Shown here: positions 16,075-40,085 of the stretch, one piece after another
Layout: every line of letters starts with the position of its first letter
Position numbering within the stretch: position 1 is the stretch's first letter
Source: Acidobacteriaceae bacterium
GTDB lineage: Bacteria > Acidobacteriota > Terriglobia > Terriglobales > Acidobacteriaceae
DNA: 64,000 nucleotides
Direction of reading: 5' to 3'
NCBI GenBank assembly: GCA_003134655.1
Contig: PLBY01000133.1
Location: forward strand, 1-64,000
Made by a program: the position numbers and the translations under genes
The notes under the pieces: generated by a model
The model's database searches: none
What the model was told of the DNA's origin: nothing
The model's input: the letters and a program-made list of their open reading frames with translations, nothing else

Positions 16075-16281
16075 TTAAGCGATTTTACGGATCGCTTCAT
16101 TCAACGTCTTGAGCTCGACATTTTGCTCTTCGATCCAATCGCGAGACTCATTTTCGTCAGATTCTCGGAACAACGTGGCGTCACGTTTCCACGCCGGCCA
16201 AGAAGATACTCGTTTACTCGCTCTCTCGGTTGCTTGCACGTGGCTCCACGCCGTGTGATCCTTCAAATCAACCTTTGCCAT
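16075..16281 (-). CDS. Small basic/acidic protein overlapping the deaminase gene
   Basis: 68 residues, starting MAKVDLKDHTAWSHVQ and ending LKTLNEAIRKIA. Its start lies 14 bases inside the end of the deaminase gene, implying translational coupling and a shared role. No family is recognised. Confidence 0.6.
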   Translation of the reverse strand: MAKVDLKDHTAWSHVQATERASKRVSSWPAWKRDATLFRESDENESRDWIEEQNVELKTLNEAIRKIA

Positions 16282-17863
16282 GGCTCTTCACCTGTAGTTT
16301 TAAGATCGTGTCGCTGAACTCTTCAAGAAGCTTGTCCTCTCGTTCGAGATAGCTGAATGGCGTCATCGGCACCCGAGGGGGACGTTCGTTCTTCGGCAGC
16401 GCCTCCGGTTTACCAGCACCGTCCTTGCGCTCTAGGTCTCGACCACTACTGAGCTCAAGCGAAAAGAGATCAAGGTATCGCCTCGGGCCTATTCCGACAA
16501 AAGGCAAGAAAGGAATTCTACCAGTTTCTTGGGCATCCTCCTCACTAAAGCAAATGGCGTCAGAGTGGAGATCGCGAGCCTTGCTCTTCGCGTACGGTTC
16601 AATGTAGTAGACTCTGCGAATTCCAGACGCAATGATGTGCCGTGTACAGTTATGACATGGGAAGGTTGTGACAAACAAGTATTTTCCTCGGACGCTGATT
16701 CCAAGTCTTGAACAGCAGAGGATCGCGTCCATCTCCCCGTGCACTGCTCTCCCGTATTCGGTAATATCCTTCAGATCACTGCGGCGGATCGCATTCGAGA
16801 CATCGATGTCGTGCACAGCTTCCTCTCTCAGAGATTTCATCACAGCATCGCTTTTCTCGGCAGTCTCCCTCTCTCCTAAAACAGGGTCCAAGGCTTTTAT
16901 GGTTTTCTTCACCACTGAGTGAAGCGTTCGAGGCGTAAGGAGTTTCCCATCGAGCTGCTTGATGATGCTGCTGACGATGTTGTCCTTGTACTTGACATTT
17001 GAATCCACCTCCTGCTTGATGTGGTCCCTAGCGTCGTCCTTGTCGCCTTCCCAATATGATCCTCCCCGGCAACAGGGAACCTCATTCATCCCCACAGCTA
17101 CGACCTCACCTTCAGGGGTGGCAATTGCTGCACCAACTTGTCGACCGAGTTGTGCAGATCGCGCAGCGGATGCATAAGCCAGGAACATGCCATGCTCCTC
17201 ACGGCTAGGAGTGTAGAAAGGATGCCCGAAGACGAGCTCAAGGAATCGATGCAACTGGTCCTTGTACCGCTCGTTTCTCCGCTCCACAAATACATCAGCC
17301 AAATAGAATGTACCTCGCGTGCGCTGCCCGTGCGGTGCATATTCCTCTTGGTCGCGCTCCACGAGGATGCGAGCTTCATTCTCGGCAAGTCCCTTTTCCT
17401 TCATCAGATAATCGAATTGCGAGTCGTCATCATCAGCAATAGCAATCAAAAAGAATCCGGGACGATACACATCTCGCAGTAGGATTACTTCTTCGGGACG
17501 TTTGAGTGATCGAATTACATGTGCGACTCGGTCTCTCGGTTTAGGCCGCTCTGTCTCATCTTCGACACGGCGAGCAGCTATATCGTTAATAGCCATGACT
17601 GCTAATACGGTGTCTGACTCCGCCTGCTTCCTCGCAGCATTCCCGGCGTCCATCAACGCCTTCATCTTGTCGAAAGCCGACGACTTATCAAATGAGATTC
17701 CCAAGTCTAAAGATCGAAGATGATTACTGACGCGAAACGTCTCTGTTTGGTATTTATACTGCGTCAGGTAATTCTCTAGGACACTTACGACGGGATCCGC
17801 ATCAGTGCCGACCGCATATACGAACCCAAAGACGAGTTCTGCAAACTTAATATTATCCATCAC
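16268..17863 (-). CDS. Anti-phage cytidine-nucleotide deaminase (DcdV/AvcD-like)
   Basis: 531 residues, the normal length for DcdV/AvcD. The N-terminal part begins with the nucleotide-kinase-like ELVFGFVYAVGTDADPV. The C-terminal part is a deoxycytidylate-deaminase fold with zinc ligands VHGEMDAIL near residue 370 and TFPCHNCTRHI near residue 400. Such proteins convert dCTP/dCMP to uracil nucleotides during phage infection and starve phage replication of dC nucleotides. In characterised systems activity is held in check by a partner RNA (AvcI) or by nucleotide signals. Here the partner could be one of the small genes on either side. The canonical Walker A lysine is not obvious. Confidence 0.85.
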   Translation of the reverse strand: MMDNIKFAELVFGFVYAVGTDADPVVSVLENYLTQYKYQTETFRVSNHLRSLDLGISFDKSSAFDKMKALMDAGNAARKQAESDTVLAVMAINDIAARRVEDETERPKPRDRVAHVIRSLKRPEEVILLRDVYRPGFFLIAIADDDDSQFDYLMKEKGLAENEARILVERDQEEYAPHGQRTRGTFYLADVFVERRNERYKDQLHRFLELVFGHPFYTPSREEHGMFLAYASAARSAQLGRQVGAAIATPEGEVVAVGMNEVPCCRGGSYWEGDKDDARDHIKQEVDSNVKYKDNIVSSIIKQLDGKLLTPRTLHSVVKKTIKALDPVLGERETAEKSDAVMKSLREEAVHDIDVSNAIRRSDLKDITEYGRAVHGEMDAILCCSRLGISVRGKYLFVTTFPCHNCTRHIIASGIRRVYYIEPYAKSKARDLHSDAICFSEEDAQETGRIPFLPFVGIGPRRYLDLFSLELSSGRDLERKDGAGKPEALPKNERPPRVPMTPFSYLEREDKLLEEFSDTILKLQVKSHGKG

Positions 17864-18299
17864 CTTGTAGTTGGCACAGCGTTGAGATGCAGCGCAAGTA
17901 ACAATTTAGGCTCGTGTGTCCCAGGCCATTGTGCCCGGTGGGGATGTGTGCTTCCTCTGAACAAGAGCATACTGCCACACGAAGGATTGAACGTATGCGG
18001 CGTGTCGCACAGTGGCGGGTCAATTCTTGAGTCTTATTGAGGACGTAGTCGAAAAACCGTTCGCTAGTGCCGTCCTCAGAAGTCCATTCCGCACGGAGCG
18101 TCGTTCTCTTCTCTACCTTTCTCAAGGCGGAAAGAAGCGTGCGATTCAACTCCCTTGCGCTGGCTCCTTCTATCTGGGCTTCGACAACGAACTCGTCGCC
18201 CGCTTTCCTGACGGAGCCCTTCGCAGAGCGTTCCTCAAGAGCGTGCTGGATCGTCTTGGCATCTGAGCGGTTCACTCTTGCCTTGAGCTTGAGTTTCAT
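17853..18299 (-). CDS. Hypothetical protein upstream of the deaminase
   Basis: 148 residues from the ATG at 18299 (GAGGAG upstream). Residues 1-95 look like a compact alpha/beta domain (MKLKLKARVNRSDAKTI ... TTLRAEWTSEDGTSERFF); the tail is cysteine-rich and may be read-through after a lost stop. The 3' end overlaps the deaminase start by 11 bases. A regulatory role is possible but unproven. Confidence 0.55.
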   Translation of the reverse strand: MKLKLKARVNRSDAKTIQHALEERSAKGSVRKAGDEFVVEAQIEGASARELNRTLLSALRKVEKRTTLRAEWTSEDGTSERFFDYVLNKTQELTRHCATRRIRSILRVAVCSCSEEAHIPTGHNGLGHTSLNCYLRCISTLCQLQGDG

Positions 18300-18312
18300 G
18301 TGGCTCGTCTCC

Positions 18313-18498
18313 TCAGCCCGAGAGCACATCATCAATTTTCTTCATGATCTGCTCAGCCCATTGGATTGATGCCGCAATCAGCTTGTCCGTTCGCGGGCTT
18401 CCCTGAGGAGTACCGAAGAGATCATCTGCCGTCTGCATATGCAGGCTTGCAAGAATCGCCGCCATAATTCCGATCACCCGTTTTCGGCCTTCGTCCAT
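18313..18498 (-). CDS. Small hypothetical protein (61 aa), first gene of the deaminase operon
   Basis: It starts MDEGRKRVIGIMAAILASLH and ends QIMKKIDDVLSG, with helical character and one hydrophobic stretch. It lies 13 bases before the next gene. A longer frame upstream (to 18624) has low-complexity codons and is less credible. Function unknown. Confidence 0.55.
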   Translation of the reverse strand: MDEGRKRVIGIMAAILASLHMQTADDLFGTPQGSPRTDKLIAASIQWAEQIMKKIDDVLSG

Positions 18499-18726
18499 TG
18501 GCGAAGGATAGCATATTCGCCTTTTGTTCCCTATTGGAGATGTCCGGGTCAGAGGCTGTGGGCTCGGTGGATGCGCACGAGATCGGGATAGGCTCGTTGG
18601 GGTGGTGCAAAAGGCTGCCTGCACCTGTGAAACGCCCAGGCCGACCCTTACCCCCCGTCCCGACAGAATGGGCCTCCTGAAAGCTCTACCAGCACCTCAG
18701 AGCATTCCATCTCAAGGTGCAATTGG

Positions 18727-19251
18727 TCAAAGATACCCAAGAGTCGACAGGCGAATTGTCATGGCCTGTTCACTGACCTCGAATTCGCTGGCAAGAAGTG
18801 TCACATGAGAGTCACGCAAGGATCTTGCCTGAAGCGCTTTGATGCGCGCCAAAAGCAATTTTGAGGGCATCAAGAGGCACGCGGCAAACTGGTTGGCTTC
18901 GATTTCTTTGAGATCTACGCCCGTGCTCGATCTTGAGTTGCGCGGTGTGATCGCGTGCCCATGGTCAACATGCACATGTTCGCCTGGCTCAAACTGGTGG
19001 CGCAGATAAAAATGTCCTATCTCGTGCGCAATCGTGAAGCGCTGCCTATTCGGAACGTCACTCGCTTGAATCGCAATTGCCGTGGTATCGCCCTTGCTGA
19101 TCAGAAGACCTGAGACATCGGGTCCTAGATCGGCATAAGCAATCTTCAGACGCAGTTGCTTAGCAACACGTTCGACATCCACTGGAGGCTTGGTAAAGCC
19201 ACAAGATTCGGCAAGAGCTTCACCATGGTACCTGGCCGTTCGTACACTCAT
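18727..19251 (-). CDS. ImmA/IrrE-family metallopeptidase
   Basis: 174 residues with the zinc-protease motif TIAHEIGHFYL (HExxH) near residue 75 and a downstream glutamate in LKEIEANQFAACLLMP. Such proteins cleave or inactivate partner XRE repressors in phages and integrative elements. The partner repressor is encoded directly upstream with a four-base overlap, the standard arrangement. It probably controls excision or a neighbouring defence module. Confidence 0.88.
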   Translation of the reverse strand: MSVRTARYHGEALAESCGFTKPPVDVERVAKQLRLKIAYADLGPDVSGLLISKGDTTAIAIQASDVPNRQRFTIAHEIGHFYLRHQFEPGEHVHVDHGHAITPRNSRSSTGVDLKEIEANQFAACLLMPSKLLLARIKALQARSLRDSHVTLLASEFEVSEQAMTIRLSTLGYL

Positions 19252-19607
19252 GCATTGCCTCTGGAGTTCCCGGCCGAAAGCCGCGCCGTCAATCTTTTTA
19301 ACGCAGGACCAGCTAGATTAAGCTTTTTCCCCAACTCCCGTTCAACATCTTTTCGACTGGGAGACTGAGCGGGCGAGTTCACAGCCGGCATCAGTTCACG
19401 AATATCCACGTCCAGGGACTTGGCGAGCTGCGACAGCGTGTGAACAAGCACTCGTTGTTTTCCGCCCTCGATATTGGCTATCGAGGCCCGCGTGGACGGT
19501 GGAATCAGAGAAAGACCAAGCTGCGCCTGTGTCATTTTCCGATGTTCACGAATTTTTTGGATTTGCGCCCCAAGAGCTTCGTAGAAGGGTTCGATCTTCG
19601 CCCGCAT
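19248..19607 (-). CDS. XRE-family HTH transcriptional regulator
   Basis: 119 residues. The helix-turn-helix covers about residues 15-70 (IREHRKMTQAQLGLSL, RASIANIEGGKQRVLVHTL). The start is set at ATG 19607 because a consensus promoter -10 box ends only eight bases upstream; longer starts would overlap the promoter. Partner of the ImmA-type protease that follows with an ATGA overlap. Confidence 0.88.
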   Translation of the reverse strand: MRAKIEPFYEALGAQIQKIREHRKMTQAQLGLSLIPPSTRASIANIEGGKQRVLVHTLSQLAKSLDVDIRELMPAVNSPAQSPSRKDVERELGKKLNLAGPALKRLTARLSAGNSRGNA

Positions 19608-19615
19608 GTTTACTT

Positions 19616-19644
19616 GTATTATGCCATCGTCCACAGAATGTCAA
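19616..19644 (-). promoter_or_regulatory. Promoter of the XRE/ImmA pair, probably giving a leaderless mRNA
   Basis: -35 TTGACA (19639-19644) and -10 TAATAC (19616-19621) with a 17-base spacer. The ATG at 19607 is eight bases from the -10 box, about where transcription should begin, so the message should have almost no leader and needs no ribosome-binding site. Confidence 0.75.
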
Positions 19645-19913
19645 GTAATGCTGTCGCGACCCCTCTGCGCTAAATGGGAGATGTCGTTTCACAGAGAGGG
19701 AGGATGCGTCCTCGGCGGGGGTACCGCGAGGGTCTGGCGCGGGGTGAGGCTTTACCAATGCTCGCAGCGAGGGGCCTGGGGACAAAAGGTCAGTATTGCT
19801 GACTCTTCCACAATTAACAATATGATACTTGACACGCGGACTTAATTTGTGGGATCGTCCTGGGAGCGGCGTCCCTTTTGGAGATGCTGCCTGGGGCAAA
19901 GGAGGCCCTGAAT

Positions 19914-20531
19914 ATGTCGCTAGAAAATGTACAGCAAGATCAGGAGCCCCTTTCGGGCGGTCGGGACGCAGGAGTTGGGTTTAATGCAAGCGAAAACCCG
20001 GTGGTTGCCGTTGATGAGGCCAAGAGAGACGCTGAAATCTCTGTAGAACTGCTCCACAAGCCAGAGGATCGGAAACACTTCCGTGTGCCACGCGATTTTA
20101 AGTTGCTAGAAGTGCTCGACGAGGGAGCAGAAAAGCTGAGTGTGAAACTGCTGCCGAACCTGGAGAAGCCGTTGGACCATCTCCGGGGAATATACGAAAA
20201 CCACCATGCCGGCGAGCCATTGAATCTTGAGCTGACGCTGGAGGATTCCCTGAGGGAGCAACCCAGCACGCATCACTTCGCGGTGGATCTCGTTCTGGCG
20301 ATTCAGATCAATACGCGCTGGCGGATCGCCCCGGAGAAGGAAATGACGCCGAAGGCCATCCTCGCCCTCGCCGAACTTCCCTGGCAAGAATACAGCCTCT
20401 ACTATCCAGCTGACAGTGTGGTGCCATTGCCTCCCGATACTCCAGTCAAACTTGACCGAGGGCAACGCTTTGAGGCGCAGCGCGACGGCAAGTACGGCGC
20501 GGGGGTCGATAGTGCACATCGGAACCGCTAA
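19914..20531 (+). CDS. Multi-ubiquitin-like (tandem beta-grasp) protein
   Basis: 205 residues from an ATG with AAAGGAGG in front. Two beta-grasp-like domains follow a disordered N-terminus: about residues 40-110 (KHFRVPRDFKLLEVLDEG) and 115-190 (NTRWRIAPEKEMTPKAILAL ... QRFEAQRDGKYGAG). This is the pattern of the prokaryotic multi-ubiquitin family found with E2, JAB and E1 genes. The end reads KYGAG then VDSAHRNR, so no bare di-glycine tail is present as encoded; processing by the JAB domain could expose one. It is the first gene of a three-gene overlapping operon and the likely substrate of the conjugation system. Confidence 0.8.
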   Translation: MSLENVQQDQEPLSGGRDAGVGFNASENPVVAVDEAKRDAEISVELLHKPEDRKHFRVPRDFKLLEVLDEGAEKLSVKLLPNLEKPLDHLRGIYENHHAGEPLNLELTLEDSLREQPSTHHFAVDLVLAIQINTRWRIAPEKEMTPKAILALAELPWQEYSLYYPADSVVPLPPDTPVKLDRGQRFEAQRDGKYGAGVDSAHRNR

Positions 20532-20922
20532 GGCAGAGATTGAACGTCTCGCCAGCTCGGGGAGCACCATAACGCTGGTGAACGAGGGTGTGCAGCCGTA
20601 CGCCCTCGCACGCAGGGTAGAAGCCCCGAGTCCTCCCTGGGATCGAACCGCGTATGACATTCTCATCGCCATCCCGATTGCCTACGATCTGGGCACATCC
20701 TTGGATGGGTTCTACATCGGCCTTCCATACACTTTTCGCGGGGGCGAACACAACAGGGTCAACGGACAGGTGGTGGTGGTTGGAGGTTCGCAGTGGAGGG
20801 CCGTTTCCTGGCACTACCCGGACGGCAAGCAGTTCCGGCTTGGGATTGACAATATCGAAAGCCACATTGTGCATTGCCGGGGATTTTTCTTGGAGCGTGG
20901 AGCGGTCAATGCCAGAACTTAA
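20512..20922 (+). CDS. E2-like ubiquitin-conjugating fold protein (Prok-E2 family E type)
   Basis: 136 residues from the GTG at 20512, overlapping the end of the multi-ubiquitin gene by 20 bases. Family-type features are the central AYDLGTSLDGFYIGLPY, SQWRAVSWHYPDGKQFRLG and the C-terminal ESHIVHCRGFFLE. In this family the E2 fold carries activated ubiquitin-like protein. The active-site cysteine is not certain; the one in VHCRG is a candidate. Its place between a ubiquitin-like and an E1 gene supports the call. Confidence 0.75.
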   Translation: MHIGTAKAEIERLASSGSTITLVNEGVQPYALARRVEAPSPPWDRTAYDILIAIPIAYDLGTSLDGFYIGLPYTFRGGEHNRVNGQVVVVGGSQWRAVSWHYPDGKQFRLGIDNIESHIVHCRGFFLERGAVNART

Positions 20923-22378
20923 TTTACGCATTTCTGCGATCGAGTGGGACCGCCTGCGCAAACACTGTGCACGTTCGTTCCGGGGACGACGTGACACTGA
21001 AAATGGCGCTATAGGACTTCTGGGCAAACGCATGGTCGAAGGCAAACTGCACGAGCTGGTGGTCGCTCAGATCGTTTGGCCAGAGCCGGGCGATGTGATA
21101 GCGCCACCACATCAGGCACTTACTTTCTCGTCGCGGTATGTGAGGCGGGCGCACATGGCCGTTCGCAAGGCCGGATTGGCAGGACTAGTCACTTTTCATA
21201 CGCACCCGTTGGCGAAATCGGAGGTGGATTTCTCCTGGTACGATGACAAGCAGGATCCTCTTCTCGTCGAGAACTTGCAGGAACTGTGGCCTGGGACGCT
21301 TCTATCCAGCGTTGTCCTGGGTGAGACCTCGCAAAGGGCGCGGTTATGGAGCTCGCCGATCGAACAAGCGGCGGCGACTTCGCTTGTGTGCGTTGGCGAA
21401 CGGCTGCAGTACCTGCCGCTGCATGGACGGTCTGCCAAACCCGCTCCCGATCCTGCAGAGATTTTCGATCGCGCCACAGCGCTCACAGGCAGCGGCGCAC
21501 TGGCGCGGATCTCCCGAATCACAGTGGTTGTCGTGGGAGCAAGCGGAACGGGCTCGCTCGTCTGCGAGCTGCTGGCGAGGGCCGGCTGCAAGAGGATTCT
21601 CCTGATCGATCACGATGTCGTAAGACTCGTGAATCTTAACCGCATCCTCTATGCGACCACCGACGACGCAAAGGATCGCCGCCCTAAAGCCGAAGTGCTG
21701 AAGAGAGGGATTGAAAGCCTGGGGTTGGGCTGCAAGGTGGTCCCGATAGTGGGGTCGATTCTGGACGATACGGTCCTGAGGCGTCTGAACGAGGGAGATC
21801 TGATATTCGGGTGTGTCGATAAGGACTATCCGCGCATGTTGCTATGCAAATACGCCTACCAGCATGTCGTTCCTTATATCGACGTAGGGGCTGAAATCGG
21901 CGGCGACAAGGAAGGGATCGTTTCCACGGACGCGCGGACCAACTATGTCGCCCCTGGCCGCTGGTGCCTGCGCTGTATAGGGTTGGTGAGTCCGCGGCGT
22001 CTAGCTTTTGAATCTTTGACAGGAGCTGAGCGCAAGAGAAAAATCGACCTTGGATACTCCGACGACCTGCTGATAAAACAGCCTGCGGTGATGGACCTGA
22101 ATATGAGAGCCGCAAGCACGGGTGTGATGCTTCTGCGCCATCTGTTTCAGCCGTTTCTGCTTGAGCCCCTTCCAGTGACGATTGCCGAAAATCTTGTGAC
22201 CTACAACATGAAGGCGGTAGCCTCGGCGCGTGCTCGTAACGAAGTTTGCGACATTTGTCGGGCGAATCCCCATGCTGGGTTTGGCGATTGCGGCCAACCG
22301 ATTGGTCTAGCCAGCGAAGTGGCAAGGGCCTTACTTGAAGAAGACGAAGATAAGCTGACGCTCGGGGCCCATACATAA
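20909..22378 (+). CDS. Fused JAB deubiquitinase / E1-like activating enzyme
   Basis: 489 residues, start overlapping the E2 gene by 14 bases. The N-terminal 150 residues are a JAB/MPN metalloprotease: ENGAIGLLG glutamate, then FHTHP and SWYD ligands. Residues 190-440 are a ThiF/E1 adenylation domain: VVVVGASGTGSLVCELLARAG for ATP, LLIDHDVVRLVNLNR for the acceptor, and the candidate thioester/zinc cysteines GRWCLRC and VCDIC. Such fusions trim and activate the adjacent ubiquitin-like protein. The set of genes resembles bacterial ubiquitin-like operons described by comparative genomics, some of which (for example Bil) protect against phage. Confidence 0.88.
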   Translation: MPELNLRISAIEWDRLRKHCARSFRGRRDTENGAIGLLGKRMVEGKLHELVVAQIVWPEPGDVIAPPHQALTFSSRYVRRAHMAVRKAGLAGLVTFHTHPLAKSEVDFSWYDDKQDPLLVENLQELWPGTLLSSVVLGETSQRARLWSSPIEQAAATSLVCVGERLQYLPLHGRSAKPAPDPAEIFDRATALTGSGALARISRITVVVVGASGTGSLVCELLARAGCKRILLIDHDVVRLVNLNRILYATTDDAKDRRPKAEVLKRGIESLGLGCKVVPIVGSILDDTVLRRLNEGDLIFGCVDKDYPRMLLCKYAYQHVVPYIDVGAEIGGDKEGIVSTDARTNYVAPGRWCLRCIGLVSPRRLAFESLTGAERKRKIDLGYSDDLLIKQPAVMDLNMRAASTGVMLLRHLFQPFLLEPLPVTIAENLVTYNMKAVASARARNEVCDICRANPHAGFGDCGQPIGLASEVARALLEEDEDKLTLGAHT

Positions 22379-23482: not shown

Positions 23483-23529
23483 TCCGTGCGTCCACGGCAC
23501 TCCTCTTTAAGCGGCGGCGGTTGGCTGGT

Positions 23530-24348
23530 CTACATGGGTTCCGTTGCGTTTTCCACTTTGCTGTTGTCGACAGCAGCAGGTGTGAACGGTTCCCCGAGCG
23601 GTACAAGGTTCGTATCGACAACAGGAGGTTTACTCCCGACGTAGCGGCTTGCGATCTTCTCAGAAAACAGGCGCAGTGCGTCGGCACGTTTTTCCTCATC
23701 AAGGGAACCAAACACCTGATCGAGCTGCTCGCCCAAACATTCGCTGACGGTGTCGTACAAGCTCGGGACATCCCCGTGCATCATTTCCTTCATACCAACG
23801 TGAATCGGAATCGGTTTGTGGCGCACATGGCGAATTAGTCGAAACGCCATGCTTATGAGCGCCGCTTTCCGCCTACGACCTGAAGGATCGTCTGGATCTG
23901 CCTCGTGGAGTCCCAAAACTGCATGGGCCATCGTCACAGCCAAGTCGTACGTCTCATCACGCCGCTGTTGCTTTCTCAACTTCTGCGTCGGGTCAGCCGC
24001 TTGTAGTAGGCGACGTACATGCCGATCACTGATACCCAGATTTTCTCTGATCCACTGGGTAAATGTTGGCCGACCAGCGGTCGGAACACGCCGTCCAGGC
24101 TGGGCGAAGCGGTTCCGAGCCTCTCGGATGTAGGCGAGGTTGGTCAGCAAGGTGTACCCTACTGGCCTCAGCTTGTTTTGTATGTGCTGGATCAGTTCTT
24201 GATCACTCAGCCGTGCGGCGTGTGCTGCCGTGTCAAATTCGGGGAGAGTAAAAGTTGAAGTGACCTGTGGACTTGCGTCCGCAGGTTGCGTTAGTGCTGC
24301 TGCTGTGTGGAGCGACTCCATCTCAGGAGCGGCGGTTGTTTCTGCCAT
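23530..24348 (-). CDS. HTH/DUF3102-like DNA-binding protein, copy A
   Basis: 272 residues. Residues 60-130 carry the conserved YTLLTNLAYIREARNRF and TFTQWIRENLGISDRHVRRLL, a helix-turn-helix pattern like that of DUF3102 or ParB-linker domains of plasmids and integrative elements. The rest is rich in basic residues (RKQQRRD, GRRRKAA). A second copy of identical length lies at 29126-29944, about 78% identical by eye and almost identical over the last 60 residues. The ATG at 24348 has GGAGGT in front. The role may be element maintenance or regulation. Confidence 0.75.
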   Translation of the reverse strand: MAETTAAPEMESLHTAAALTQPADASPQVTSTFTLPEFDTAAHAARLSDQELIQHIQNKLRPVGYTLLTNLAYIREARNRFAQPGRRVPTAGRPTFTQWIRENLGISDRHVRRLLQAADPTQKLRKQQRRDETYDLAVTMAHAVLGLHEADPDDPSGRRRKAALISMAFRLIRHVRHKPIPIHVGMKEMMHGDVPSLYDTVSECLGEQLDQVFGSLDEEKRADALRLFSEKIASRYVGSKPPVVDTNLVPLGEPFTPAAVDNSKVENATEPM

Positions 24349-26077: not shown

Positions 26078-26956
26078 ATGGCTCTTCAAGGTCGCAATGA
26101 AATGTGCGGGTGCGGCAGGGGCAAGAAGTACAAGAAGTGCTGTGGGCGATTCACTCTTGAAGAATTGCTCACAAAGCTCTCCGCCTACGCCGCTACCAAC
26201 AAGCAGAAGGACAAACTAATCGAGCGTTCGCTCAAGTTCCTCAAGGCATGTGAGGTCAACAACGGGGGTGCTTCCCTTATCCTTGTTAATCCTGTCACCA
26301 AGGAAGACATCATCGACTGGACTGCCGTCGGCAGCAGCAATGTCGAGACGGACGTGCGAGAGGCGGTGGTGACGCGCCGGATTCTGGCGGGCTACCTTCC
26401 CATTTGCTGTCTGGTTGAGGACAAATTCGTGAAGTCGGGGTGGCGTGCGGTCATCGTCGAAACTCTGGTGACGGAAGAGTGCCGTGACGAGTTCGTGGCC
26501 TTCGCCCAAATTGAGGCAAACGTCGTCGCCAAGACGTTTAACGGCGAAATGTCAAAAGAGGATTCTTGGATGACGACAATCCCGTGGGGCGACTTGAGCT
26601 ATCCCGGCATGCCGATGAAGCCACGTCCGGCAGGGACTATCAGGATTGAAGTCAACATCCCCAAGCGGACAATGACGACAGTGTGGACGATGGTCGGCGG
26701 TTCGATGGAATTCCCGCTCTCCGAAGAGCTCATCACCGGGAACGACTCGGACGACATCATCTACGAAGCACGCCACGCCATAGAGGCACTCAAGCGGGCC
26801 AATCCGCCCAAGCAGCTTGTGGACGGCGACAAGGTCGAAGTTTGGCAGATGGTCACGGGCGGGGAAAACAAGCTGCTTGCGACCGCCGAGGTCCACATCA
26901 CGCCTCCGCTGACCCGCAGCGAGTTCGATGTGAAAGGGGTCAAAAATGCTAATTGA
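26078..26956 (+). CDS. SEC-C motif protein (N-terminal motif)
   Basis: 292 residues. The N-terminus MCGCGRGKKYKKCCGR is a SEC-C zinc motif like that at the end of SecA, here used as a stand-alone adaptor. The remainder has two unknown domains (around VTRRILAGYLPICCLVEDKF and AEVHITPPLTRSEFD). It overlaps the next gene by 11 bases, so the two act together. Function unknown. Confidence 0.75.
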   Translation: MALQGRNEMCGCGRGKKYKKCCGRFTLEELLTKLSAYAATNKQKDKLIERSLKFLKACEVNNGGASLILVNPVTKEDIIDWTAVGSSNVETDVREAVVTRRILAGYLPICCLVEDKFVKSGWRAVIVETLVTEECRDEFVAFAQIEANVVAKTFNGEMSKEDSWMTTIPWGDLSYPGMPMKPRPAGTIRIEVNIPKRTMTTVWTMVGGSMEFPLSEELITGNDSDDIIYEARHAIEALKRANPPKQLVDGDKVEVWQMVTGGENKLLATAEVHITPPLTRSEFDVKGVKNAN

Positions 26957-28053: not shown

Positions 28054-28752
28054 TCATCTGCCACAGCACCTTTTATATTTCTTGCCGGAACCGCAGGGGC
28101 AGGAACAGTTCCTTCCACGTTTTTGAGGCGATCTGCTCATCATCGAACGCTCCGTGGCTGCTGCAAGGAGCATTCCAGCACGGGCCTCCAGTAGCTGAAT
28201 TTGCATCAGGGCGGTGGGCGAATAGTGATAGATCAATTCACCGGAACACCATTCTTTCGGAACGCGGTTCCGGAGAGAGATTTTCTCTGAGGAGAGCTTC
28301 AACGCCTCCGATACCCGAGGATCGTCTACCAGCGGAACCCGCACGCTGTCAGGGATCACGGTGGTTTCGAAGTCGTAGGTTGCCACGTCGTCGGGGATGA
28401 ACAATATCTCTCGACATGCGTTTCCATCCGGGAACGAGTTCGGAGTGCAGTCGATCCACGGCTTTCCATTGGCCGGATCGAAAACCGCGTGTGGCTCCGC
28501 CTCGATAAAGAGATTCGAGTGCTGCCAGACGGCCCACCCGAGTTGCATCTTTCCGCCTTCCCGCCCAACTTTGTTGCGGACGTTGTGGAAGCAGTAACTT
28601 TCCCTCGCACCGGGGTCGGGAATTACCCTCACGCTGATGGCTGTCCCTTCCGTCCCGAGTGCGTTGCGAAGCTTCTGGACAGTTTCTGAACCTGCGATTG
28701 GCACGAAGACGCTTCGGAGCGCAGATTTGATGCTGTCCACCATGGTGCTCAT
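28054..28752 (-). CDS. SEC-C motif protein (C-terminal motif)
   Basis: 232 residues, with the zinc motif CPCGSGKKYKRCCGR as the last residues. The N-terminal 180 residues form an unrecognised domain with YCFHNVRNKVGREGGKMQLGW and PWIDCTPNSFPDG, reminiscent of uncharacterised proteins acting on imported or cellular substrates. Start ATG 28752 with AAAGG upstream. Convergent with the other SEC-C operon. Confidence 0.75.
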   Translation of the reverse strand: MSTMVDSIKSALRSVFVPIAGSETVQKLRNALGTEGTAISVRVIPDPGARESYCFHNVRNKVGREGGKMQLGWAVWQHSNLFIEAEPHAVFDPANGKPWIDCTPNSFPDGNACREILFIPDDVATYDFETTVIPDSVRVPLVDDPRVSEALKLSSEKISLRNRVPKEWCSGELIYHYSPTALMQIQLLEARAGMLLAAATERSMMSRSPQKRGRNCSCPCGSGKKYKRCCGR

Positions 28753-29072: not shown

Positions 29073-29125
29073 CTTGCCGCATGCCTCCGGGTCATCCTGC
29101 TGACCGCCGAAGTAGTGTCGCTGGT

Positions 29126-29944
29126 CTACATGGGTTCCGTTGCGTTTTCCACTTTGCTGTTGTCGATAGCAGCAGGTGTGAACGGTTCCGCGAGCGGTAC
29201 AAGGTTCGTATCGACAACAGGAGGTTTACTCCCGACGTAGCGGCTTGCGATCTTCTCAGAAAACAGCCGCAGTACGTCGGCACGTTTTTCCTCATCAAGA
29301 GAACCAAACACCTGATCAAGTTGTTCGCCCAGACATTCAGTGATCGCGTCGTAAAGCTCCTCAAATTGACCCGGCTGCAATTCCTTAACGGTCACACGCA
29401 TCCCAAGGGGTTTATGCCTCACCTGGCGAAGTAACCTGAAAGCCATGTTGGTGAGTGCCGCTTCCCGCCGACGGCCTGAAGGATCGTCGGGATCTGCCTC
29501 GTGGAGTCCCAAAACTGCATGTGCCATCGTGACAGCCATGTCGTACGTCGCATCACGCCGCTGTTGCTTTTTCAACTTCTGCGTCGGGTCAGCAGCAGCC
29601 AAGAGGCGACGAACATGTCGATCGCTGATGCCCAGATTCTCTTTGATCCATTGGGTGAACGTCGGACGACCCCCTATCGGAACACGCCGTCCGGGTTGGG
29701 CGAAGCGGTTTCGGGCCTCTCGGATGTAGGCGAGGTTGGTCAGCAAGGTGTGCCCTAGTGGCCTAAGAGTGTTCTGGACATGCTGGACCAGTTCTTGGTC
29801 GGTCATGCTTGCCGCGTGTGCTTGCTTGTCCAGTTGGGGGACGGTCAGAATTGAAGAGACCTGTGGACTTGCGTCCGCAGATTGAATTTGTTCGGTTGGC
29901 GTGTGCGGCGATTCTATCTCAGGAGCGGCGGTCGTATCTGCCAT
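29126..29944 (-). CDS. HTH/DUF3102-like DNA-binding protein, copy B
   Basis: 272 residues, same architecture as copy A at 23530-24348: TLLTNLAYIREARNRFAQPG, then the helix-turn-helix WIKENLGISDRHVRRLL. The N-terminal 55 residues and the stretch around residue 200 have diverged most, while the C-terminus (EKIASRYVGSKPPVVDTNLV) is nearly unchanged. ATG 29944 with GAGGT in front. Confidence 0.75.
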   Translation of the reverse strand: MADTTAAPEIESPHTPTEQIQSADASPQVSSILTVPQLDKQAHAASMTDQELVQHVQNTLRPLGHTLLTNLAYIREARNRFAQPGRRVPIGGRPTFTQWIKENLGISDRHVRRLLAAADPTQKLKKQQRRDATYDMAVTMAHAVLGLHEADPDDPSGRRREAALTNMAFRLLRQVRHKPLGMRVTVKELQPGQFEELYDAITECLGEQLDQVFGSLDEEKRADVLRLFSEKIASRYVGSKPPVVDTNLVPLAEPFTPAAIDNSKVENATEPM

Positions 29945-31750: not shown

Positions 31751-31972
31751 TTATGCGATTATCCCTTCGTCGTTGAATTGGATTTCGGTGCGTGAAACCG
31801 CACGCTCCTCATTGGTGCGCGCACGCTCGATCCTTGCGAGGCCCGGACAAACGGCATGCGACCACTTGGCGTAGCCGTCTTCCCTGACGATCACGGCGCC
31901 GATTTTGATGTAGCCGCGGCAACGTGGGCAAACCGTAGTGTGCTTAGCTTGAGTACGCCAGTAATTGTTCAT
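31751..31972 (-). CDS. Zinc-ribbon-like small protein (73 aa)
   Basis: Contains VCPRCRGYIKIGAVIV and a later HAVCPG, a probable zinc site. Its start lies 29 bases inside the 3' end of the DNA polymerase gene, so translation is coupled. It may be a polymerase accessory or DNA-binding protein. Confidence 0.6.
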   Translation of the reverse strand: MNNYWRTQAKHTTVCPRCRGYIKIGAVIVREDGYAKWSHAVCPGLARIERARTNEERAVSRTEIQFNDEGIIA

Positions 31973-33845
31973 CCGCTACCTCTTCCTCTAATACTGCAAA
32001 TTTGTCCCAGCCGAAGTATTCGCAGACGATGTCCCAAATCTCAGCCCCGTCTGCGTCTTCGTAATGGTCGGGATGGTAGACGACTTCGGCGTGGACTCTC
32101 AGCGGGAACTCTGGCAATCCCATGACGGTATGGCCGGCTTCGATGAATGCATCCTCGACAGCCCTCTTGCACTCTTCCGCTTTTTCGGCCTCGACATGCA
32201 TGTACAGAGCATCATGATGGGGGGCAGCCAGTGCGGGACCCCATCCCGCATCGACCAGGAGGATGCAGGCACACCGCAGCAGTTCCGCACATCCCGCCTG
32301 CTGAGGGAAGTTCAGGACACTGTTCGCACTCATGTGTTCGGTCGACTGCCGCCACCCGAAATCCGTTTCCACGTAGCCACGTTCTTCGGCGAGCTTGGCT
32401 TGATCTTCAACCCACTGCCAGTAGACCGCGTACCCCTGCTTGTGGCGGTTGATGATTTTTTGTGCTTTCCAGAGGGGCACGCCAAGGTATGTGCTGAGCG
32501 TCTCGCCACCAACGCCGTACTGGATCGCAAGCTTCGCAGTCTTGTGCTGTGCCCGAATGATTTCCAGTTCCTTGTTTTTCTTGTCCCGCATGGTTCCGAA
32601 CGGTACTGCCTCGGTGACGGCAGCAAACTCCATGTACGAATCGGCGCCAGACGAATAAATCCGCATCAGCTCCGGGTCGCCAGAGAATCCTGCTGCAAGC
32701 CAATCTTCAGCACCGGTCACGTCGCAGGCGACCAGTGCCATGCCTTCCCGCGGTGCAATCAGGTTGCGAACCCAATGCGGCCGGCTGAGCAGGAAATCTT
32801 TCGCCTTGGGGTTGTTCCGTGACGTGACCGTGCCAAACATCCACAGCGTCGAGCGGTTGAATCCATCCTCGCCGAGCACGGTTTCGAAGCGGCTAAGGCT
32901 GTTCAGCGATTTCCGGCACTGTCGCAGTGGTTGGAGTTCGGGGTAGGCGTTACACATGTCGCCGAAGTAATCGTCTTCGAGCATGGGATCGCCTGACGGC
33001 GTAGCTTGCCACATCGCACCTTTGCCGCCGACCGTTATGCCCTTGGACGCCAATAGCTCGGCGAACTTGTTCATCTTGAACACGGGATGCGGCTTGGTCT
33101 TGGTCGTTTCCTTTCCTTCAATCACGTAAACACCGTAGCGGTGCGTCTCTTCGATCTTGTTTGCGATGCTGAGCTTGAGCTTCGGGGATTCGTCTTCGAT
33201 GGCACGGAAGCGTTCGGCATCCACGGGGACGCCATAATGCTCGAAGTATGCGTTCGCCTTGCAGTATTTCCCACGCCAAAGGGCCTGTTCGATGTCCAGT
33301 TCAGGAATCATCTGGCGGCCCAGCCAGACGGTCGCATTAACATCCTCTTCGCAATAGGTGAGGATCCGCTTCTGGTGCTCTTCCATCGTGACGCCTTCAG
33401 GCGGCGTCGTGCCGTTTTGAATGACGTAGTTGCGTTCTTCGTCCTTGCTGCTCTTCCAGAAGTCCATCGGGTTGCCGCCGAAGTAGGTCACGGCATCCAC
33501 CAAGCCTGTGCCCAGGTCCTTCAGGCAGTCTTTCCCACGCCACCTGCCGTTAATCAAGTTCAAGAACTCGACGTACAAGTCGATGCAGTGCTCTGGCTGG
33601 ACCCAGCCGAGCGACAGCATGGTCTTCAGTTCCGCCGGCAGGTTGTAGCCAAGGAAGAGCGTGCTCTTTGGGTCGGGGAACGGGCTGGCGGCCGGCGTGT
33701 CGAAGAACATCTCGATCCGCCGGCCCTTGTTGAAGCCGTGGGCAACGAGGCACACCGGGCGTTGGGTTTCGCCCGGTCGTGCCACGTACTCCGTATCGGG
33801 GACGTAGACGTACGGAAAGCGTTCAGGTGTCAGCTTACTCGACAT
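31944..33845 (-). CDS. Family A DNA polymerase, phage/plasmid type, with 3'-5' exonuclease
   Basis: 633 residues. The N-terminal exonuclease has DTEYVA (Exo I, D-x-E), GYNLPAELKTM (Exo II, with Glu where Asp is usual) and TYCEEDVNATVWL (Exo III). The polymerase has motif A as ACDVTGAEDWLAAG (catalytic Asp and Glu five residues on, as in DYSQIE), motif B as AKLAIQYGVGG and motif C as PHHDALYMHVE (HD). There is no 5'-3' nuclease domain, as in replicative phage polymerases. It overlaps the upstream gene by 11 bases. It indicates that the element carried its own replication module. Confidence 0.9.
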   Translation of the reverse strand: MSSKLTPERFPYVYVPDTEYVARPGETQRPVCLVAHGFNKGRRIEMFFDTPAASPFPDPKSTLFLGYNLPAELKTMLSLGWVQPEHCIDLYVEFLNLINGRWRGKDCLKDLGTGLVDAVTYFGGNPMDFWKSSKDEERNYVIQNGTTPPEGVTMEEHQKRILTYCEEDVNATVWLGRQMIPELDIEQALWRGKYCKANAYFEHYGVPVDAERFRAIEDESPKLKLSIANKIEETHRYGVYVIEGKETTKTKPHPVFKMNKFAELLASKGITVGGKGAMWQATPSGDPMLEDDYFGDMCNAYPELQPLRQCRKSLNSLSRFETVLGEDGFNRSTLWMFGTVTSRNNPKAKDFLLSRPHWVRNLIAPREGMALVACDVTGAEDWLAAGFSGDPELMRIYSSGADSYMEFAAVTEAVPFGTMRDKKNKELEIIRAQHKTAKLAIQYGVGGETLSTYLGVPLWKAQKIINRHKQGYAVYWQWVEDQAKLAEERGYVETDFGWRQSTEHMSANSVLNFPQQAGCAELLRCACILLVDAGWGPALAAPHHDALYMHVEAEKAEECKRAVEDAFIEAGHTVMGLPEFPLRVHAEVVYHPDHYEDADGAEIWDIVCEYFGWDKFAVLEEEVADEQLLAYSS

Positions 33846-38249: not shown

Positions 38250-38766
38250 ACTCGGCGGTGGCTTGGGAACGAAAAAAGTTGTCCTTCACAGGATCGCATA
38301 GCTTACCTCGAGCGCGTCGGGCAATCAGTCGATGGCGCGGTGCGGTGCCCCCTGGCTTGGAGGCGACGGGAGGTTCCACGGCTGACCAAACTTTTTTCGA
38401 ACAACACCCAAAATTAACGCGGAAATTGTTGGGGGATTGGGTATTGAATAGTAGCCGATTTCGGAGTTCTGCTCGCTTAGAGGTCTCCGTCCCAAGATTT
38501 CTCGTTCTACGACTTTACTCAGTTGCGGGATATGACTGGCATGGCAAAACCGACCGTGGTCTCGAAGGACAGTTTCGTTGGAACAGTGCCTCCAAATCTC
38601 GGGTTCGATACCTACCCCCAGCGTGGGTGTCCTTTTTCCCGCTACCGTGCCTTTGGCGGTCTACGGACAGCTTTGTCCCCAAGAACTGCAAGCCAATCTG
38701 TTGCAATTCCCTGCCAGCAATAATAAGGTTCTTACCGCGATACCAGACCAGAGACGGAGGAGGTAT
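38250..38766. other. Region between acidic-protein gene and integrase
   Basis: About 500 bases. The frames extending upstream of the integrase have no ribosome-binding site, so I treat it as leader or promoter DNA. A short GGTTCGATACC at about 38600 looks like a tRNA T-arm but its stem does not pair. Confidence 0.4.
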
Positions 38767-40002
38767 ATGTCTCGCAGGTCTGGTCAGAACGGCCGTATCG
38801 AGCAACATGGGAAGTCTTGGACTGTCCGGTTTTGGTTGGACGTTCCTGGGCAAGTGGAGCGTGATTACAAGCGCGTGAAGATTTGCCCGGTGAACGGGGC
38901 CGGATCACTCAACAAGTCCGAACGGAAGCGAAGAGCGAAAGAGATCATCGCTGAGTCCGGAGCAGACTCCGAGGAAGTCTTCCGCGAAGCGGAAGCCGCG
39001 AATCTCGGAACAACGTTCAAGGAACAAGCTGAGAGATGGTTCAAAGCAGTGCAAACGCGGAAGCGGAGACCAATCAAGCCGCGTACCGCAGATGCGTGGG
39101 CAACCTATCTCTCTTACATCAACCCCCAGATCGGGGAAATGCCGCTTACATTGGTGAACAACCTCGCAGTGAAAGAACTCATTGCGAAGATGGCCTCCGA
39201 GGTAAAGAAGAACAAGCCGCGTTTCGCCGCGAAGACGATCAGCAACTACGTCCAGGTTGTGAAGATGGTGGTGGCATCAGCGGTCAATGATAAAGGGGAG
39301 GAGATCTATCCCGTGAAGTGGAATCATGACTTCATGGATCTGCCAGAGGTCAAGGACCAGAGGACTCCTACTTTCTCGGCCGAGGAGATCAGCACGATCA
39401 TCTCGAAGGCCGAGGGACAGTATCAAGTCCTCTATTCCTTGCTAGCGGGGACAGGTCTTCGGATCGAGGAAGCCTTCGCTCTCCAGGTGGAGGACATTGA
39501 GGGTTCTGTGATCCGTGTCCGCCACAGCATGTGGAACGGCAAGCTGTACTCGCCAAAGACCGCGGCCGGAATCCGCGAGGTGGATATCCATACCTCGCTG
39601 GCTGAGTTGCTACACAACCATCTAACCGAACGTTGTACGGGGTTCGTCTTCAGAAGTGCAGTAGGAACACCGTTGGCTCGCTCAAACGTGTTGCGGAGGA
39701 GTCTACACAAGATCTTGGGAAAGATGGGCCGCGAGAAATGCGGCTTCCATGCCTTTCGGAGATACCGTGTGACTCATCTTCGCAAGCAACGAGTGCCAGA
39801 GGATCTGTTGCGTTTCTGGATCGGTCACGCCGACGGGAGCGTCACAGACGGTTACTCGAAGGTGAAGGAAGATGTTGAGTTCCGCAGATTCACGGCGGAA
39901 CAGGCGGGACTCGGTTTCCACATGCCCACTGTGGCACCGAAATTGCCAGTTGCACCCATTGCACCCAAAACTGCGGGTGCTGAAATCGCTCTAACTGCTT
40001 GA
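38767..40002 (+). CDS. Tyrosine recombinase / integrase
   Basis: 411 residues from ATG 38767, chosen for its GGAGGAGG site. Catalytic residues: Arg in AGTGLRIEEAFAL, HAFRRYRVTHL (H-x-x-R), the GH of FWIGHADGSVTDGY, and the final Tyr in TDGYSKVKED. The N-terminal part has a SAM-like core-binding domain. Its stop is 7 bases from the 3' end of a tRNA gene, the usual arrangement of islands that integrate into tRNA genes. Confidence 0.95.
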   Translation: MSRRSGQNGRIEQHGKSWTVRFWLDVPGQVERDYKRVKICPVNGAGSLNKSERKRRAKEIIAESGADSEEVFREAEAANLGTTFKEQAERWFKAVQTRKRRPIKPRTADAWATYLSYINPQIGEMPLTLVNNLAVKELIAKMASEVKKNKPRFAAKTISNYVQVVKMVVASAVNDKGEEIYPVKWNHDFMDLPEVKDQRTPTFSAEEISTIISKAEGQYQVLYSLLAGTGLRIEEAFALQVEDIEGSVIRVRHSMWNGKLYSPKTAAGIREVDIHTSLAELLHNHLTERCTGFVFRSAVGTPLARSNVLRRSLHKILGKMGREKCGFHAFRRYRVTHLRKQRVPEDLLRFWIGHADGSVTDGYSKVKEDVEFRRFTAEQAGLGFHMPTVAPKLPVAPIAPKTAGAEIALTA

Positions 40003-40008
40003 AGGAAT

Positions 40009-40085
<77 letters not shown>

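Follow-up and report, generated by a model that had tools for sequence, protein, structure and literature searches.

A diverged and reduced Bub-type ubiquitin-like operon in an Acidobacteriaceae genome

Described ubiquitin-like systems and the Acidobacteriaceae operon

Bacterial operons that carry a ubiquitin-like tag together with its activating and removing enzymes have been described in several forms. The operon considered here lies at positions 19914-22378 of a 64,000 nucleotide stretch (referred to as the window; contig PLBY01000133.1, positions 1 to 64,000, assembly GCA_003134655.1) from a member of the Acidobacteriaceae. It consists of three overlapping genes on the + strand, which encode a tag protein, an E2-fold protein and a fusion of a JAB protease to an E1 activating enzyme; an initial annotation, made from the sequence alone, had predicted these genes, and the open reading frames (ORFs) bear it out. 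In the cyclic-oligonucleotide-based anti-phage signalling system (CBASS), Cap2 and Cap3 constitute an E1-E2 fusion plus a JAB protein. The operon shares with Cap2/Cap3 the presence of E1 and JAB chemistry at one locus, and its E1 weakly matches the PADLOC E1-E2 models (best 9.7e-10). However, this E1 is fused to JAB and not to an E2, and no CD-NTase was found among the proteins scanned, for which reason an assignment to CBASS was rejected.

The closest described relatives are the Bub (bacterial ubiquitination-like) operons. Structures of BubA, BubB and BubCD from Citrobacter are available (PDB 9EA4, 9EA5, 9EA8, 9EAE and 9EAV). In common with Bub, the window has a JAB-E1 fusion, an E2-like protein with a Ser-x-His (S-x-H) loop that lacks cysteine (as does the BubB sequence), a beta-grasp tag encoded upstream and an adjoining transcriptional controller. 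It differs in that the tag is not recognised by Pfam, the E2 match is of just 28.8 bits and there is no DUF6527 gene in the genome. The Bub operons on plasmids of Citrobacter freundii and Enterobacter roggenkampii include a DUF6527 gene and encode a multiubiquitin protein of 362 amino acids, long enough for a tag-E2 fusion, whereas tag and E2 are separate in the window. The C. freundii plasmid operon was not checked as the source of the PDB entries. Upstream of both plasmid operons are genes for a hypothetical protein and a winged helix-turn-helix protein, which are taken to be CapK and CapS after the portion of PMC13373217 available to us, while the window has a CapH/CapP-like controller.

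The arrangement also corresponds to type 6e as set out in the available part of Iyer et al. 2006 (PMC1779556; e.g. Synechocystis pSYSX), namely a protein of ubiquitin-like repeats followed by an RWD-like E2 without cysteine and then a JAB-E1 with the JAB domain at the N-terminus. Type 6e is described there as having one to three repeats; in the window the C-terminal repeat is supported and the first is weakly predicted. An XRE/ImmA pair is annotated upstream of the pSYSX operon as well. Unlike type 6e and pSYSX, the window has no gene for the zinc-finger (DUF6527) protein, and the E1 identity is about 30 %. The BilABCD (bacterial ISG15-like) system, as far as it is covered in the available text of PMC11354881, resembles the operon in its tag of tandem ubiquitin-like domains, its E1, E2 and JAB proteins and its tag trimming. 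However, Bil has a separate JAB and catalytic cysteines in both E1 and E2 (CEHH motif), whereas in the window JAB is fused to E1 and there is no conserved nucleophilic cysteine.

We conclude that the operon is of the Bub type (type 6e of Iyer et al. 2006), diverged and reduced, and that its kinship is well supported. The nearest solved structure by sequence is Citrobacter BubCD, which the JAB-E1 protein matches at 1e-30 over residues 62-407 (phmmer), and the E2-fold protein matches the fold of BubB. The parts list and the relationship to bacterial ubiquitin-like operons proposed in the initial annotation are thereby supported. As to function, the accessible portion of PMC13373217 presents Bub operons without demonstrated phage protection, and according to a review (PMC12687455, seen in part), phage defence appears to be the main role of the Bil and Bub systems.

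Conservation and predicted folds of the three proteins

Thirty-one loci were examined: the window, 23 from whole genomes and 7 from plasmids, the latter drawn from 172 records. Thirty rows were aligned for the JAB-E1 protein; L056 has no E1, its stretch ending with the contig. Among the profiles that had been named for checking, ThiF (1.5e-26) and Prok-E2_E (narrowly above the cut-off of 25 bits) were matched, whereas Prok-JAB reached 17.3 bits on the JAB-E1 protein, under its cut-off of 25, and Multi_ubiq did not match the tag. The JAMM residues E31, H97 and H99 are present in all 30 rows, S109 and D112 in 29, and the E1 adenylation residues G210, G215, R245, K260, D304 and R309 again in all 30.

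The crossover loop is the site of the nucleophile in classical E1s. In this loop (between C356 and C447), no column had cysteine in at least 3 of the 30 rows, the loop not being readable in three of them (L058 and L063, truncated before it, and L057, where it was not recognised). The window has Ser384 at a place where one relative, L024, has cysteine and the other printed loops are mostly hydrophobic. The conserved cysteines lie elsewhere. C302, in an FGCxD motif, is cysteine in 28 of 30 rows, and the CxxC pairs C353/C356 and C447/C450, which are probably zinc ligands, are cysteine in 19, 20, 21 and 18 rows, respectively. Two further cysteine-rich columns, at L38 (19/30) and G296 (20/30), have no cysteine in the window, and only C302 and the two CxxC pairs are common to the window E1 and its nearest kin.

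The E2-fold protein was modelled with a predicted local distance difference test score (pLDDT) of 87.9, and its sole PDB match at E≤0.001 in a Foldseek search is BubB (E 6.7e-4, probability 1.00, template modelling (TM) score 0.66/0.69). In profile-profile comparison, two rows (the E2s of the window and L024) match 10 relatives (98.5 %, 2.6e-15), and Prok-E2_E was passed by all 6 of these that were scanned. Across the 31 rows of the E2 alignment, which includes L057 and L063 (absent from alignments A2 and A4), the serine of the S-x-H motif is found in all rows and the histidine in 30. An aspartate (D65 in the window) is likewise found in 30 rows, and a tryptophan, where the window has Phe108, in 29; L058 is the row that lacks both the histidine and the aspartate. 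No column has cysteine in at least 75 % of the 31 rows and none in the active-site loop does so. In the model, S99 and H101 directly follow the strand 93-98 and precede the helix 115-135, the place of the active-site loop of an E2, and the single cysteine of the protein, C122, is in the C-terminal helix. We suggest, from conservation and position, that the E2-like protein works through its invariant Ser-x-His.

The relay of thioesters from activator to carrier that had been envisaged for this operon thus has no candidate cysteine in the E1 crossover loop or in the E2 loop, and, as far as the sequence tells, the E1 half has no accessible thioester cysteine, an outcome named beforehand as one that would refute the initial reading. 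Because the relatives likewise lack these cysteines, it is the mechanism that is corrected and not the kinship.

With a mean pLDDT of 61.1, the tag model is reliable for the C-terminal domain alone: a low-confidence N-terminus and a weakly predicted first beta-grasp are followed by a confident beta-grasp at about residues 131-190. The best-matching folds are linear diubiquitin (3.2e-3), bacterial multi-ubiquitin proteins and ISG15. Searches of the tag against PADLOC and NCBIfam gave no match. The C-terminal domain (two rows) matches 14 relatives in profile-profile comparison (96.5 %, 9.2e-10), and all 5 of these that were scanned pass Multi_ubiq. The kinship of the tag is based on this match, together with the partly weak model and the position of the gene. 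The protein is likely a tandem of two beta-grasps, as had been proposed; the C-terminal beta-grasp is supported, but the first domain is poorly predicted.

Twenty-six of the 31 loci were included in the tag alignment (L050, L051, L056, L057 and L063 were left out). F186 is invariant, and the Gly195 column is glycine in 25 of the 26 rows; L058 has a gap in this column and was kept in the count. The window tag continues for 10 residues past Gly195, compared with 0 to 10 residues in 16 other separate tags that have a residue there, and the tags of the window and L024 agree just before the glycine and diverge after it. By seed profiles, 18 of 31 loci have distinct genes for tag and E2. The two form one ORF in 9 loci (8 via seed profiles, plus L024); in these fused loci the glycine is internal, and a cut would therefore be needed. 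The natural reading of the conserved glycine and the 10-residue tail is that JAB trims the tag after Gly195, as these features suggest, in keeping with the earlier expectation that a tag not ending in a bare di-glycine would need JAB processing. In the window, the tag and E2 genes overlap by 20 nucleotides with the E2 frame offset by +1. We note that this offset (window 20490-20531), set against the single ORF of L024, could be a natural split, a frameshifting site or an assembly error. The GTG start used for E2 was chosen by us, and the frame remains open further upstream.

Relatives, regulators and genomic setting

Among 72,556 plasmid records, a tblastn search with the JAB-E1 protein (E≤1e-5) found 172; the matches are all <60 % identical, and 54 cover at least 80 % of the query. 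Plasmid searches gave no match when the tag or the E2 was the query. Five phage records match over the E1 domain only, and viral contigs gave no match. JAB-E1 was matched at 1e-30 in 8 of 297 genomes of a phylum sample and Prok-E2_E in 18 of 397 genomes of an order sample (17 above cut-off), the source genome included in each. That genome has one JAB-E1 of the operon kind and two further matches that span the E1 domain only. A scan of genome contigs with JAB-E1 yielded one remote relative, L018, which was excluded from the analysis.

In a tree of the 30 JAB-E1 rows (rooted at the midpoint for drawing only), the window and L024 (genome G465) group together with support of 100/99; they are 41 % identical and sit on a stem of 1.11. 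Another row, L057, may belong with this pair (support 87/78) but has an end branch of 3.08. When the two E2s were used as queries against 398 genomes of the family, 5 matches were obtained at 1e-5, the pair itself at 1.4e-77 and 3.3e-74 and the next at 6.3e-9, and no third close member was found in this E2 search. In a class sample (399 genomes, in which G465 is not listed), the window alone stands out (962.9 bits; next 176.1). On these sequence comparisons, the operon and L024 form a rare, long-stemmed clade. The L024 operon, from another genus of the same family, has genes for a TrwC relaxase and a TrwB-type coupling protein beside it (L024:2365-5829).

A DUF6527 gene is present in 24 of the 31 loci, sometimes not directly beside the operon. 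In the source genome (G000) DUF6527 had no match anywhere, and all 3 positive-control genomes matched. Genome-wide searches of G465, G467, G655 (82 % complete) and G117 likewise found none, and 4 further DUF6527-bearing genomes matched. Since the controls match, DUF6527 is truly missing from these five genomes, as far as the completeness of the assemblies allows. They do not make up one supported clade in the JAB-E1 tree. Among the 7 loci without the gene are also L056, with no DUF6527 seen in its genome (G660, 85 % complete), and L058, which is cut by a contig end and the genome of which has a DUF6527 fragment starting another contig. The initial annotation had seen no small zinc gene of the kind found in relatives, and this holds genome-wide. 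The operon can, however, not be called complete-looking as had been done, given that the partner gene of 24 loci is absent, and the term 'CEHH-type' used for this small gene belongs elsewhere, CEHH being, in the available text of PMC11354881, the active-site motif of the BilB E2.

The coordinates of the operon and of features around it are listed in Table 1. The XRE/ImmA pair resembles the CapH/CapP regulators in comprising an XRE repressor and an M78 peptidase, encoded by overlapping genes divergent from the operon; the assignment comes from profile matches alone, strong in the case of CapP and weak in that of CapH. The ImmA protein matches PADLOC capP at 2e-33 (next model 1.2e-11) and Peptidase_M78 at 4.4e-19, and capP is also the best model for the ImmA proteins of 4 relatives (1.1e-37 to 2.9e-6). 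In the part of PMC13373217 (EMBO J 2026) available, CapW or CapH+CapP accompany 219 of 544 Bub operons, and the CapP protease is activated by single-stranded DNA. A helix-turn-helix and ImmA pair divergent from the operon is annotated at 3 of the 7 plasmid loci (Synechocystis pSYSX, Pseudanabaena and Acidiphilium). In a Mesorhizobium relative (L017:1069-2159), a RES-family NAD+ phosphorylase and Xre antitoxin-like pair is annotated at the place of the XRE/ImmA pair. Within the divergent region, no inverted repeat with arms of at least 6 and a gap of at most 12 was found, a weak sigma-70-like site (19799-19826) is no better than those in shuffles, and the counts of promoter-like and terminator-like sequences are near those of shuffles.

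Table 1. Positions in the window of the operon, its predicted functional sites and features around it
Feature	Position	Strand	Details	Basis
Anti-phage dCTP deaminase	16268..17863	-	Neighbouring defence gene outside operon	NCBIfam NF041025
ImmA/IrrE (M78) peptidase, CapP-like	18727..19251	-		PADLOC, Pfam
XRE-type repressor, CapH-like	19248..19634	-	Weak model match	PADLOC
Divergent intergenic region	19635..19913	.	Presumed promoter and operator	
Ubiquitin-like tag (BubA-like)	19914..20531	+	ATG 19914 to stop 20531, 205 aa	
Codon of Gly195	20496..20498	+	Predicted mature C-terminus of tag	Conservation
E2-fold protein (BubB-like, Prok-E2_E)	20512..20922	+	GTG 20512 to stop 20922, 136 aa	
S-x-H motif codons	20806..20814	+	S99, W100, H101	
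E2 C-terminal helix segment	20860..20907	+	SHIVHCRGFFLERGAV, carries Cys122	
JAB-E1 fusion (BubCD-like)	20909..22378	+	ATG 20909 to stop 22378, 489 aa	
Phage-type integrase	38578..40002	+	Adjoins tRNA-Pro; probable right border of mobile region	
tRNA-Pro	40009-40085	-		

The source genome is of 8.05 Mb in 164 contigs, with listed completeness of 99.52 % and contamination of 5.23 %. That an anti-phage deaminase and an XRE/ImmA pair are neighbours of the operon, as initially annotated, was confirmed by NF041025 (430.4 bits, NCBIfam cut-off 400) and by the CapH/CapP models. Between the deaminase and ImmA genes are two small ORFs (17853-18624, - strand) with no family match above cut-off. To the right of the operon, the region is probably mobile, with its border at the integrase and tRNA-Pro (~40 kb). 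Six stretches from the genus were available for comparison at this border and 5 were compared (L087, which ends with its contig, was left out). In all 5, DNA similarity to the window ends inside tRNA-Pro or not more than 30 bases past it; a related integrase is at the border in 2 and tRNA-Pro was found in 3. The break in similarity and the related integrases support a mobile region on the right side. No left border of the island was found, and the window has no exact direct repeats of tRNA-Pro of at least 13 bases.

Further genes were noted within the window. A family A DNA polymerase-like protein of 633 amino acids (31944-33845, - strand) has its stronger match to phage DNA polymerases (phrog_17, 9.5e-36) and a weaker one to RTasPolA, a PADLOC model for defence-associated reverse transcriptase (DRT) systems (6.2e-16). 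Two near-copy genes (23524-24081 and 29120-29677, - strand), 5.6 kb apart and with products of 272-288 amino acids, share 80-94 % identity across two stretches; neither has a Pfam match and the copy at 23524-24081 also lacks PHROG and PADLOC matches. A SEC-C motif is present in two proteins (26078-26956 and 28054-28752), N-terminal in one and C-terminal in the other.

Proposed mechanism and alternative explanations

We consider it probable that this diverged and reduced Bub-type operon reversibly couples its beta-grasp tag to proteins, or to some other acceptor, by a non-cysteine route. In unstressed cells, the XRE repressor would silence the divergent operon and, by analogy with the CapH/CapP family, the ImmA-type peptidase would cleave the repressor upon DNA damage. 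The JAB half would then cleave the tag behind Gly195, so that its 10-residue tail is lost, and the E1 half is predicted from its conserved residues to adenylate this glycine. Transfer of the activated tag would bypass the classical cysteine thioester. The leading candidate for the receiving nucleophile is Ser99 of the E2-like protein, in the S-x-H just past the last E2 strand, which would act through an oxyester or by direct Ser/His-assisted transfer. The JAB half may later take the tag off again. DUF6527 being absent, the system would run without it.

A number of observations weigh against this interpretation. At the level of the tag, the only Pfam match is at chance level, the first domain has block pLDDT values of 34-61, no fold match reaches E≤0.001 and the listed matches have TM-scores by query length of 0.20-0.30. 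Of the 25 glycines counted at Gly195, the one in L015 is probably misaligned and not the true terminus. The invariant S-x-H may be structural, and the 2006 work (PMC1779556, in the part available) regarded the RWD-like E2-like domain as inactive, because it lacks cysteine. The operon might be inactive if DUF6527 is needed. For the regulators, the XRE protein matches capH at 5.6e-7, nearly tied with HTH_VI at 9.6e-7, and only 1 of 5 XRE proteins of relatives matches capH, not as its best model.

Other explanations were considered. The operon could be a decaying and inactive remnant of a canonical Bub operon from which DUF6527 was lost and in which a frame change separated the tag from the E2, as the genome-wide absence of DUF6527, the end branch of 1.11 and the fused tag-E2 ORF of L024, set against +1-offset frames in the window, might indicate. 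However, the family-conserved catalytic residues of JAB and E1 are intact in three long open frames, four other operon-bearing genomes are also without DUF6527, which suggests an old state, and tag and E2 are separate in more than half of the loci (18/31); we regard decay as unlikely. It is also rather unlikely that Cys122 and the nearby histidines of the motif SHIxHCRGFFLERGxV are a lineage-specific nucleophile or metal site replacing the function of DUF6527. The E2s of the window and L024 are 40 % identical overall but agree at 14 of 16 positions in the stretch S117-V132, H118, H121, C122 and R123 among them, and both genomes lack DUF6527. This identity is a lead only, as it involves two sequences and the E1 start codon is one base downstream, such that the DNA may be held by a ribosome-binding site; moreover, Cys122 is outside the canonical E2 loop and Ser99 and His101 are intact.

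A classical relay as in BilABCD, from E1 thioester to E2 thioester to lysine, would fit the ThiF/UBA type of the adenylation domain, the crossover-loop cysteine of L024 at the place of Ser384 and the one cysteine of the E2. As neither loop has a conserved cysteine and C122 is in the C-terminal helix, it was rejected and we hold it to be very unlikely. Least probable of all is a sulfur-carrier or small-molecule pathway like ThiS/ThiF or MoaD/MoeB in place of protein tagging. It would account for the ThiF-family E1 and for the C-(T/V)-D motif at C302, which we take to be shared with MoeB. It was rejected on the grounds that the partners are JAB and E2-like proteins, the nearest solved structures are BubCD and BubB, control is of the CapH/CapP type and Pfam identified no metabolic enzyme in the proteins scanned from 14 to 38 kb; genes for an S-adenosylmethionine synthetase (9.6 kb) and an amidohydrolase (40.3 kb) are more distant.

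The name Bub was given to these operons only recently. For a Bub-type operon with a non-cysteine route, the combined conservation in E1 and E2 makes a testable case for a whole ubiquitin-like family without the classical cysteines. A lineage without DUF6527 is a natural deletion, and asks whether DUF6527 is needed for conjugation. A more specific proposal, that the operon is of a deep Bub lineage in which three proteins carry out conjugation in a DUF6527-free genome, with a Ser-x-His relay and an added Cys/His helix of the E2 replacing the missing partner, is possible and must be held tentatively. If it is true, this would be a minimal ubiquitin-like system, in which the essential chemistry is separated from an accessory protein.

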